DNA of 64,000 nt from Pseudoruegeria sp. SK021. Lineage in GTDB: Bacteria; Pseudomonadota; Alphaproteobacteria; Rhodobacterales; Rhodobacteraceae. Within the stretch, counting starts at the first letter, position 1. The number at the start of each line of letters is the position of its first letter. The position numbers and the translations under genes were made by a program. The stretch is taken from contig NZ_MTBG01000019.1 of NCBI RefSeq assembly GCF_002119405.1, forward strand, positions 1 to 64,000, written 5' to 3'. Positions 37,772 through 42,219 of the stretch are shown here, in pieces. The notes beneath the pieces were generated by a model, which worked only from the letters and a program-made list of their open reading frames with translations, searched no databases and was not told the DNA's origin.

Positions 37772-38010
37772 CCGCAAGTCCCTATTCTAGGCGATGAAAA
37801 AAGCGCATATTTTTCACAGCCTTACTTGGCGCCACTTTTTGGTAGCGCCGGTATGCCGCATGGCCCTTTTCTGCTTTTTTCCAACCCGTTATCCGGTCCT
37901 TTTGACGTAATTGACGCCGCGTCCGGTTAATCACCCTGCACCGCAACAGCCTGAAATATCAGCGTATCACCGGTGGCAGCGTTTGAATCGCCGCCATGCC
38001 GGAGGACCAG
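37772..38010. other. AT-richer divergent gap upstream of nuoA
   Basis: This is the only gap over 300 bases (37694-38010). It holds the nuoA promoter candidate and an inverted repeat TGAAAAA/TTTTTCA (37795-37801 and 37810-37816). It also has several T runs on the plus strand and tandem TTGACG/TTGACGC near 37900, which could be a plus-strand -35 region. The base composition is clearly lower in GC than the genes around. No coding frame is convincing. Confidence 0.5.
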
Positions 38011-39084
38011 ATGAGCCCAATAATTGCCCTTGCCCTGTCCGTGCTTCCTGATCTCGCCAAACACCTGACCCCGGGCGCCATGCCGGAAATCCAAGACCGG
38101 GTCGTTGCGATAGTCCGCGATGTTCTGGGAACCGACGATCCAGACGAGGCCGCCCTGCGCGTCGCCGACATGCATCTGGCCGGAACCCTGCGCTTGCGGC
38201 TGGCTGAAATCGAAACCGACGCGCAAGCGCAATTTCGGGCTGAGATGGTTCACGACTTTGCGAACCGGTTCAGCAATCAATGGGGCACGCCATCTCCAAT
38301 CGCCCAACCTGCCGCAGGTAATCTGTCCTTGGCCTGGGCACCGGTCGCCGTATCGCTTGTTGTGACCGGGGGCTTCTTCGCCACCCTAATTTTTCTGATC
38401 GCGCTGATCCGGTCACCCGACGCCAGCAGCAGCGCCAATCAAAGCGTCATTCAGATCGTCAACATTACGGTGGGCGCCCTCACCGCTGCATTTGCCACTG
38501 TGGTCAGCTTTTGGCTTGGCTCATCCGAGGGCTCGCGCCTAAAGGACCGGACCGCTTTGCAAAGGGTCAGCACCAATGTCCTGCCCCCGGCACACGTCGC
38601 CCCTTTACAATCCCACGCGCCGACGACGGCACCAAACCCTAAGGATGCCCGGCAGTTCTCGCTCTGCCTCGCGCAGGTGCGCAAACTGTCACTGGCCTTT
38701 CCCGGCACCTGCCTTGATGGCGCTGCCGCCACAGATCGCGATCCGGCCGAGACGGCGGCGCGGTTGCGGATCACCTATTGGAATGGACTGAACTGCGATG
38801 CGCTTGCCCCCGGCGTCGACCTGATGATGTTCGATATCGGTGTGACGTCTGGCGTCGCCACGGCTGCGCGGATGTTGCAACGGATCGTGCATGTGGAACC
38901 GGATGGACAGATCGGAACGGTGACAATTGGCGCAGCCCAGAACTTCCGGGCCGATCACCTCATTGCGGGCCTGTGCAAGGCGCGATTGGCACAAGGGCGA
39001 CACGCCCCTGAGCGCCCTGCCCCGCATAACGCCCAGATGCGGCGCGCTGAAAAATGCCGAACGCTGGCACTGGCGATGATCTAA
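38011..39084 (+). CDS. Holin-like membrane segment fused to degenerate muramidase-like domain
   Basis: 357 aa; the start at ATG 38011 has GGAGGA four bases upstream. Residues 1-100 are soluble and helical. Two membrane helices (about 108-133 and 146-170) end in VVSFWLGSSEGSRLKDR, as in holin superfamily III-type proteins. Residues about 212-320 resemble the end of GH108 N-acetylmuramidases with its peptidoglycan-binding part (RITYWNGLNCDALAPGVDLMMFDIGVTSG, then AARMLQRIV and GQIGTVTIGAA). The EGG catalytic block expected near residue 226 is absent. No phage genes are nearby. Domain calls are by eye and moderate. Confidence 0.6.
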   Translation: MSPIIALALSVLPDLAKHLTPGAMPEIQDRVVAIVRDVLGTDDPDEAALRVADMHLAGTLRLRLAEIETDAQAQFRAEMVHDFANRFSNQWGTPSPIAQPAAGNLSLAWAPVAVSLVVTGGFFATLIFLIALIRSPDASSSANQSVIQIVNITVGALTAAFATVVSFWLGSSEGSRLKDRTALQRVSTNVLPPAHVAPLQSHAPTTAPNPKDARQFSLCLAQVRKLSLAFPGTCLDGAAATDRDPAETAARLRITYWNGLNCDALAPGVDLMMFDIGVTSGVATAARMLQRIVHVEPDGQIGTVTIGAAQNFRADHLIAGLCKARLAQGRHAPERPAPHNAQMRRAEKCRTLALAMI

Positions 39085-39093
39085 ACGCAGCCC

Positions 39094-39594
39094 TCAGCGC
39101 GGTTCGTTGCCGTAGGCCATTCCGTGGCGAAACTGGATCACCCGATCCGAGGTCAGTTCGATCAGGCAGGCCCCGCCGACAATGGATCGGATCGTGCCGC
39201 CGATGAACGTTTGATAAACGTTGGCACATTCCGCATCGCGAAAGGCGATCCAAGCCCGTTGCGCCGCCAGAAGGTGCTCCACATTGGCACCCTGCTGATC
39301 CGGAACATCGACATCGCGGGCCTTAGCGTCGGCAAGGATCGCGGGCCACAGGTCATTCAACACCCGGTCCCACTCGGCGTTTTCGGCAACCAAGCAGGCG
39401 CTCATTCCGTATGTGGTCTGATCGCCGCTGGCAGCTTGGCACGCTTCATAAACCAGATCGCGACAGGCAAGATCGCCGTCTTCCCCGGCGCTGTTCGCCA
39501 GACAGTTGTCAAGAATAGCTGCATAAGTGTCTGCCTGCGCCGGAAACGTCATGATGAGGACCGCGATCCCAACACATCCGAGTAAAACCTTCAT
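39094..39594 (-). CDS. LprI/DUF1311-type lysozyme inhibitor-like exported protein
   Basis: 166 aa with a signal peptide (MKVLLGCVGIAVLIMTFPAQA). Paired Cys residues and a C-terminal block LLAAQRAWIAFRDAECAN are typical of PF07007 (LprI, lysozyme-inhibitor-related). It should act in the periplasm. The gene is convergent with the holin/muramidase-like gene, nine bases between stops. Inhibition of lysozyme is a family property and not shown here. Confidence 0.8.
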   Translation of the reverse strand: MKVLLGCVGIAVLIMTFPAQADTYAAILDNCLANSAGEDGDLACRDLVYEACQAASGDQTTYGMSACLVAENAEWDRVLNDLWPAILADAKARDVDVPDQQGANVEHLLAAQRAWIAFRDAECANVYQTFIGGTIRSIVGGACLIELTSDRVIQFRHGMAYGNEPR

Positions 39595-41579: not shown

Positions 41580-42086
41580 TTACTGCATGGTCGCAATCTG
41601 ACAATCGATTACAGCTTCAATCGCTTTGGCCGATCCGGTCAGGTCAACAGTCACCGACTCACCGTTGGAGCGGTCAACGATCAGGGTCTGCTGCTTGGCC
41701 AGCTCATAGGCAAAGTTCAGGTTGTTGAAAAAGACGTAGCCGCCCTGAACGCCTTCTTTGTTGTACTCTTTCGCTTCGCCGGTGAAGATAGTTTCACCCA
41801 GCGTCATGGCCACGGGCACGAAATCACCCTCTGTGGTACCTGCCTCGACTTTGGCAAACAGGCCAGCATAGGCTAGCTCTTTTTTGCGGTCGACGCCGAC
41901 CTGAAACTGACGGCCTTCTGCATCGGTGCGCGATGCTAGGCAGCTATCCCCCAAGGCCTTGCTGTAATACAGTGTCCAGTCGCCCAGCTGGTCGACCATC
42001 TGCAGTTCCTGAGCTTGGGCTTGGCTGCCAAGCAGCCCCATCATTGCCCCAACCAGACCGTAGCCAAAATAACGTGCAGAACCCAT
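41580..42086 (-). CDS. Exported protein of unknown function
   Basis: 168 aa with a signal peptide (MGSARYFGYGLVGAMMGLLGSQAQA) and a mature part of about 143 residues rich in beta strands. A Cys pair, one in DSCLAS and one in VIDCQIA near the C-terminus, could form a disulfide. The start at 42086 has AAGG nine bases upstream. The opening LGDWTLYYSKALGDSCLAS recalls IalB-like exported proteins, but the match is too weak to name. Confidence 0.7.
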   Translation of the reverse strand: MGSARYFGYGLVGAMMGLLGSQAQAQELQMVDQLGDWTLYYSKALGDSCLASRTDAEGRQFQVGVDRKKELAYAGLFAKVEAGTTEGDFVPVAMTLGETIFTGEAKEYNKEGVQGGYVFFNNLNFAYELAKQQTLIVDRSNGESVTVDLTGSAKAIEAVIDCQIATMQ

Positions 42087-42109
42087 GGATATCATCCTTG
42101 TATTTGTTC

Positions 42110-42131
42110 CGCGGCAGTCAGCGCTGCCGCG
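42110..42131. other. Perfect hairpin between M20 and unknown exported gene
   Basis: CGCGGCAG and CTGCCGCG form an 8-bp stem with a six-base loop, 24 bases upstream of the exported-protein start. It could end the M20 transcript, although no T run follows on the minus strand. Confidence 0.5.
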
Positions 42132-42219
42132 TTTCGATGACGACACAAGTTTTTGTATCGCGCCCAAGAAGTGACTTATTTTTCAATGTGCGTCCAGTCT
42201 TGTCCGCTCTGCGCCCGCC

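Follow-up and report, generated by a model that had tools for sequence, protein, structure and literature searches.

A gene of Pseudoruegeria sp. SK021 appears to unite the two parts of a phage lysis system, a holin-type membrane protein and an endolysin, in one polypeptide, and its endolysin part appears to have lost the residues with which it would cut the cell wall. This raises the question of how such a gene comes to lie in a chromosome, and what it could still be doing there. The answer that we favour, at a probability of roughly 0.57, is that the gene is a chromosomal, vertically kept holin-lysin fusion that has been detoxified in SK021 and whose membrane half is still in use.

The fusion gene and its muramidase half

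An open reading frame of 362 amino acids occupies positions 37996-39084 on the forward strand of the window, by which we mean the whole 64,000-nt stretch of contig NZ_MTBG01000019.1. We place the fusion gene, with its holin-type half and its apparently dead GH108-type half, at 38011-39084 (forward strand; 357 amino acids, numbered here from 38011). This start fits best because a ribosome-binding site, GGAGG, can be read directly at 38001-38005, five nucleotides before the ATG, and because the resulting MSP start aligns with an MSP or MNP start in five of six orthologues from the same genus, the start of the sixth (G004) being different. Purine-rich sites of a similar kind precede several of the sibling genes.

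According to profile matches and alignment, a holin half and an endolysin half share a single polypeptide both in SK021 and in its genus siblings. Residues 1-91 (38011-38283, forward strand) form a helical region in the AlphaFold2 model, are aligned across the fusions and correspond to the region matching phrog_1544 in stand-alone relatives. A predicted two-helix membrane hairpin follows (38347-38517, forward strand), with helices at residues 113-133 and 149-169 in hydropathy windows and at 110-134 and 142-187 in the model. After the second membrane helix comes a GSSEGS motif (38518-38535, forward strand), whose GSS is invariant in a 26-row alignment and occurs also in stand-alone hairpin relatives. 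Hydropathy thus bears out the initial annotation of this locus, which had described two membrane helices ending in GSSEGS. A linker of low model confidence connects this motif to the GH108 remnant (residues 211-357; 38641-39081, forward strand), which profile matches, the AlphaFold2 model and structural comparison all identify, and in which a helical lobe is kept.

The initial annotation had also described this C-terminal region as GH108-like but lacking the EGG block, and here the similarity proved real but partial. PF05838 matches the SK021 protein at 21.5 bits (cut-off 21.2) over profile positions 49-85 of 85 only, and PF09374 (PG_binding_3) reaches 18.5 bits, under its cut-off of 24.6. The PHROG endolysin family 315 matches at an E-value of 1.3e-17, and the GH108 similarity is backed by the orthologues and by comparison with solved GH108 chains. 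The fusions of the six siblings score 104.7-116.1 bits against PF05838; their frames, of 426-470 amino acids, all contain EGG...DPGGATNMGIT and a GW motif.

In the SK021 protein, SLA stands at residues 227-229 (38689-38697, forward strand) where six of six genus orthologues have EGG, the Glu of which we take to be the catalytic residue of GH108. The first 32 residues from KDARQF align ungapped, with EGG replaced by SLA and DPGGAT by DGAAAT. At a junction at 38734-38739 (forward strand) the residues that follow GGAT in the siblings, from NMGIT onward, are missing, a net loss of 23 residues against five siblings and of 31 against G004; the segment that opens with KDARQF and closes with YWN has 48 residues in SK021, 71 in the five and 79 in G004. 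The C-tail is without the GW motif. Judged by this alignment, the muramidase half of the SK021 fusion is one that has lost its active site. The initial annotation had proposed that the protein binds peptidoglycan rather than cutting it. Such a role is unsupported because the GW motif, which lies in the PG_binding_3 part, is gone too, and PF09374 stays below its cut-off.

Could the catalytic segment have been overlooked? A six-frame tblastn search of 900 bases around the region with two sibling peptides gave only the gapped in-frame match and pieces at chance level, with no second copy of the catalytic block, and we therefore rejected a frameshift or missed block. A paralogue supplying the activity from elsewhere was likewise rejected: across the whole genome the fusion is the sole match to PF05838 (24.0 bits; E up to 0.1), and PF09374 alone gives none at 0.001. 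It is also very improbable that a local mis-assembly or sequencing error removed the segment. The genome is a draft in 189 contigs, which leaves some room for such an error, but the frame stays open, no other frame holds a catalytic segment and there is no second GH108 in the genome. Moreover, the deletion is accompanied by a substitution (EGG to SLA) and the divergence spans the whole GH remnant and the tail, so that a single deletion error cannot account for them.

Structure models of the SK021 protein and of a sibling (from 24- and 22-row alignments) had mean pLDDT values of 80.3 and 82.0, and their pTM values of 0.46 and 0.44 make the placement of the domains uninformative. Within the remnant, residues 251-330 reached pLDDT 90-97 per ten-residue block. 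The best solved match to the GH108 half is Brucella SagA (7dnp), whose solved chain comprises 174-182 residues without a membrane hairpin. The intact sibling half superposes on 7dnp with Z 26.1 and an rmsd of 1.6 over 171 aligned residues, the SK021 half with Z 18.7 and an rmsd of 2.0 over 140. Short strands at about 285-301 in the sibling model are absent from the SK021 model. As modelled, the retained part of the SK021 remnant keeps a GH108-like helical lobe, a fold that is partly assumed because the alignment behind the model included homologues.

The hairpin half, its relatives and its genomic setting

The N-terminal half matches phrog_1544, a family labelled 'unknown function', at 2e-4 over residues 6-187 of the 362-aa reading frame, and this family is matched in SK021 and in five of the six siblings. 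The SK021 protein matches no holin family in Pfam, and a match to phrog_689 ('holin') is weak (0.048) and found in one of the six siblings. Stand-alone relatives of the hairpin, all four of which match phrog_1544 among those scanned, have an endolysin gene as their immediate neighbour at three of the five loci that we read. At L094 the hairpin gene overlaps a gene encoding GH108 and PG_binding_1 domains by four bases; at L095 and L096 it follows a phage lysozyme gene, and the genes around look tail-like by eye. No clear endolysin was seen at the other two loci (L098 and L099), and the annotation of a Vibrio phage that carries this hairpin domain lists none within 6 kb. Because stand-alone relatives lie beside endolysins, and because the hairpin is fused to lysins of different types (see below), the evidence supports the interpretation of the hairpin half as a holin-type membrane protein. 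Both similarities for which the initial annotation had suggested profile searches, to GH108 and to holin-type proteins, were thus found. The three prophage-type cassettes share with SK021 the hairpin domain with its GSSxGS motif, and L094 shares the enzyme family as well. However, the cassettes consist of separate adjacent genes, an endolysin gene followed by a holin-like gene in surroundings that look phage-like by eye, whereas SK021 has one fused gene at a non-phage locus.

In the fusions, two to four K or R residues occur within 20 residues after the second helix, compared with none to two in the short loop. These positive charges weakly favour a topology in which both ends of the fusion are in the cytoplasm. 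For the hairpin half no clear match emerged from structural comparison; matches to residues 103-198 of the SK021 model go up to Z 7.0 and are helical arrangements of a common kind. When the sibling was compared with viral models by Foldseek, 12 rows appeared at E up to 1e-3, mostly named as lysozymes and some unnamed; a 3TM-holin row had an E-value of 0.26 and is not significant.

A search of 61 genomes with the SK021 protein (SK021 itself, six others of the genus, 30 of other genera in the family and 24 of the same class) found the fusion in all six other genomes of the genus. The other genera of the family yielded one weak GH108-only match (in G029), and two genomes of the class yielded GH108-only matches. 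The orthologous locus is marked by nuoA (PF00507; 37328-37693, reverse strand in SK021), from which the fusion is divergently oriented in all six genus orthologues, with moaA downstream in the five whose contig extends that far. The neighbourhood is therefore conserved across the genus, as the initial annotation had asked. According to Pfam, one side of the SK021 fusion is taken up by the complex I subunits nuoA-E and the other by a HAD hydrolase, a MoaA-type protein and an M20 peptidase, with DUF3422 also among the neighbours. Eight neighbours were compared with PHROGs and five had no match; the HAD, MoaA-type and M20 proteins matched PHROG families annotated as HAD, polynucleotide kinase and radical SAM, as well as three whose function is unknown. 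No phage genes were thus seen beside the fusion in the Pfam and PHROG comparisons of its neighbours, in agreement with the initial annotation, and we rejected a prophage remnant on the grounds of these neighbours. A GTA-type lysis gene was rejected as well: model NF040573, which we take to be linked to GTAs, gives 15.9 bits for SK021 and 90.4 for one sibling against a cut-off of 240. Also in this neighbourhood, positions 41580-42167 on the reverse strand encode a protein of 195 amino acids that begins with or soon reaches a signal-like stretch close to the N-terminus; it has no Pfam match above cut-off and no PHROG match, and a 58% identical copy is present in the same neighbourhood of G004.

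A search of contigs with the hairpin half gave 25 loci: the six genus siblings, 18 further loci with a GH108-type tail, among them loci from Halochromatium, Ruegeria, Phaeobacter, Pseudovibrio, Roseibium and Bradyrhizobium, and L060, from Ancylobacter, in which the hairpin half is joined to SLT and M15 domains. On a viral contig (L061) it is joined to a sub-threshold GH19 match. We found the hairpin domain in at least seven of 385 genomes of the class (two with a frame of more than 300 amino acids), at least seven of 394 genomes of the family (six frames of 365-487 amino acids and one of 183) and at least three of 195 genomes of the genus to which the Bradyrhizobium locus belongs; these tallies are minimum values, since not every first candidate of a genome was scored. 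The fusion family is uncommon, being sparse in Alphaproteobacteria outside the genus, with Halochromatium in addition. At 16 fusion loci none of the neighbours looked phage-like by eye, with Pfam scans covering one listed neighbour at L058 and one at the genus locus L031. L050 adjoins a transposase-like pair. By eye, the fusions at two of the 16 loci, L043 and L058, also adjoin nuoA.

The LprI-type neighbour and an upstream element

The initial annotation had suggested that the locus could be a module for lysis or secretion that binds peptidoglycan, and that the LprI-type protein of the periplasm could be its lysozyme guard. The convergent neighbour at 39094-39594 (reverse strand) is indeed an LprI-domain protein (PF07007, 79.1 bits), and it begins with what by eye is a signal-peptide-like stretch, so that a periplasmic location is probable. 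A profile built from four LprI proteins of the genus located such a gene near the fusion, adjacent and convergent, in four of seven genus genomes (SK021, G001, G004 and G005). With this narrow profile, it was not found in the available stretches of G002, G003 and G006, though the muramidase is intact there, nor in stretches of 3 to 17 kb around 19 fusion loci outside the genus. All seven genus genomes encode at least one PF07007 protein somewhere. MliC (PF09864) has no match in the SK021 neighbour in Pfam at E up to 10. One study attributes the inhibition by LprI of Mycobacterium tuberculosis to its MliC domain, and reports that the LprI-domain protein ScwA of Salmonella affects the levels of wall hydrolases but confers no lysozyme resistance (PMC7933661).

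A guard role is unlikely because the co-occurrence is patchy, MliC is absent, the enzyme beside the gene is dead in SK021 and ScwA gives no lysozyme resistance. The LprI gene is probably not a functional partner of the fusion; it may have some looser role in wall upkeep. Taken as a whole, the interpretation as a guarded wall-binding module therefore appears improbable to us: the adjacency in four genomes and the weak PF09374 score speak in its favour, but the gene is missing from the other fusion loci and the GW motif from SK021. The result is a warning that PF07007 'LprI' neighbours should not be taken as lysozyme guards.

Upstream of the fusion, at 37844-37861 (forward strand), SK021 has a degenerate copy, with four mismatches, of an 18-nt element, AGCGCCGTAATGACGCAG, which is present exactly at the same place in all six siblings (G001-G006), at a distance of 150-174 nt from nuoA in those where this was measured (five siblings). 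At up to one mismatch the element occurs in six of 41 genomes, all in the genus. The nuoA upstream regions of 15 other genomes of the family contained a near match, with three mismatches, only in L143 (G013). Because this near match is upstream of nuoA, the element may be part of nuo and not of the fusion gene. A scan for sites of CtrA and LexA type, using motifs that we take to represent these regulators, found TTAACCAT in two of 18 upstream regions and one LexA-like site in one of 18, nothing that was usable.

Divergence of the two halves and the possible role of the fusion

The two halves of the SK021 fusion have diverged unequally. Identities between the SK021 protein and eight other proteins from the nuoA site run from 0.62 to 0.73 in the membrane part, where those eight share 0.59-0.96 with one another; in the GH remnant they run from 0.43 to 0.50, against 0.55-0.90 within the eight. 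The C-tail of SK021 is only 0.19-0.33 identical. On a fixed tree, with support of 52-65 at some nodes, the protein branch leading to SK021 measures 0.39 in the holin half (other terminal branches 0.05-0.89; only one of the nine is longer) and 1.24 in the GH remnant, where the other terminal branches reach at most 0.36. In a home-made codon model, omega for SK021 was 0.089 in the holin half against a background of 0.066, which is no difference (2dlnL 0.23), and 0.150 in the GH remnant against 0.051 (2dlnL 11.94), and omega = 1 was rejected in both halves (7.38 and 7.16, respectively), all of these values being rough because synonymous sites are saturated. The rate figures are indicative given this saturation, several branch lengths at the bound of 8, the low node support and the record of G004, in which nuoA is split, so that rates involving this genome need caution. 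The split consists of separate matches to two pieces of nuoA at G004:C58:5415-5773 and is probably a base error in a MAG. With this reading of the figures, the alignments indicate that the holin half still looks constrained and that change in the muramidase remnant is rapid but not neutral.

The main rival to our reading, which we consider a serious though clearly less probable one, is incipient pseudogenisation: the loss of the catalytic segment would be the first step of decay, and the holin half would look conserved merely through recency. Indeed, purifying selection prior to a recent loss would yield the same omega pattern. The strong divergence of the GH remnant and the C-tail fits such decay, as does the degraded upstream 18-nt element, and most of the family does without the fusion, which occurs in fused form in at least six of 394 sampled genomes. 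However, the frame is open over 357 codons behind a good ribosome site, the codon-position GC pattern is retained, and omega = 1 is rejected for both halves, if roughly. Furthermore, the unequal divergence of the two halves disfavours neutral decay of the gene as a whole. Since SK021 retains nothing recognisable with which to cut, the choice is between a role at the membrane or as a scaffold and a gradual loss of the gene.

For the detoxified fusion that we favour, we infer membrane integration, oligomerisation, triggering and present function along the following lines. A phage lysis cassette may have given rise to the fusion gene. In the siblings, the hairpin would form oligomers in the inner membrane, both ends of the protein being cytoplasmic. 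The muramidase would then stay in the cell until the hairpin opened or flipped over, an arrangement proposed also for a fusion in Clostridium sporogenes (see below). Upon a trigger, the hairpin would weaken or open the membrane, allowing the tethered muramidase to reach and cut the wall, and the outcome could be local lysis or protein release. In SK021 the cutting step would be gone and selection would keep the membrane part, leaving a holin-like oligomer or scaffold that does not lyse the cell and bears a muramidase lobe still folded but dead, that is, a detoxified lysin; the LprI protein would be a neighbour and not a guard. The idea in the initial annotation of a domesticated, non-phage fusion of a holin and a GH108 domain minus its cutting site is, to this extent, supported.

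The nearest known system is the natural TpeE-holin-endolysin fusion of C. sporogenes, found in six genomes and held to couple membrane weakening to lysin transport (PMC9527704). Like the SK021 family, it combines holin and endolysin in one polypeptide with the lysin C-terminal. However, it is described as having a one-helix TpeE-type holin, whereas the SK021 family has a two-helix hairpin and GH108, occurs in several Proteobacteria and has a dead enzyme in SK021. In Type 10 secretion, TtsA-type enzymes (6v40; PMC9527704) have the GH108 fold in common with the fusion, and the holin dependence is drawn by analogy; the gene of TtsA stands apart as an endolysin gene with a link to a toxin, whereas the SK021 enzyme is fused and inactive. 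No cargo gene was identified next to the SK021 fusion locus. The endolysin of Hafnia phage Enc34 is described as likewise combining a catalytic domain and a transmembrane part in one polypeptide (PMC8943055), and is set apart by the C-terminal position of its transmembrane part and by another catalytic family.

A comparable fate may be that of SpmX. Its structure (6h9d) appears as a row in the structural comparison of the sibling model, and Randich 2019 is said to be a further reference for it. SpmX of Caulobacter and Asticcacaulis (PMC5347347) resembles the SK021 protein as an alphaproteobacterial phage-lysozyme-like domain with two membrane helices that was co-opted for a cell function, and differs from it in having the lysozyme domain N-terminal and the helices C-terminal; SK021 has the reversed order, GH108 and no known localisation partner. 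Among the matches listed from the open-licence literature, we found no published description of a proteobacterial hairpin-GH108 fusion, only the C. sporogenes fusion. Natural holin-endolysin fusions are already in print for Clostridium, and what we have not seen in the literature listed is a proteobacterial chromosomal family with repeated disarming.

That the disarming was repeated is suggested by the 28 GH108-bearing fusions, of which 25 retain EG; it is absent in SK021, L046 and L051, and GW is absent in these three and in L054. Losses of EG or GW probably occurred at least twice, since L046 and L051 are of Bradyrhizobium type and L054 is from Xanthobacteraceae. The decay of GH108 in these three loci may have a cause other than in SK021, because they carry extra N-side domains of wall-binding or hydrolase type. 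We tentatively suggest, as a possibility that we do not consider probable, that Proteobacteria carry non-prophage single-gene holin-lysins as all-in-one devices for wall crossing or lysis, in which the lysin was disarmed at least twice and the holin kept for a non-lytic role. This suggestion includes variants in which the hairpin is combined with GH108 and also with CHAP-, GH19- or SLT/M15-type domains. If true, there would be a natural series from the two-gene phage cassette through the intact chromosomal fusion of the siblings to the disarmed fusion of SK021. Genetics could then take the membrane step of a lysis machine apart from the cutting of the wall, and the usefulness of holin-type membrane proteins without any lysin would become testable.

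Larger arrangements of the hairpin also occur. At L046, L051, L054, L056 and L059 it lies inside frames of 671-1021 amino acids, with PG_binding_1 before it and GH108 after it, and three of the five have sub-threshold N-side matches of CHAP or GH19 type (GH19 in L054). The Xanthobacteraceae genome of L054 (G780) encodes a second copy at L113 (1273-3099), a protein of 608 amino acids with the hairpin, GH108 and a sub-threshold CHAP match.
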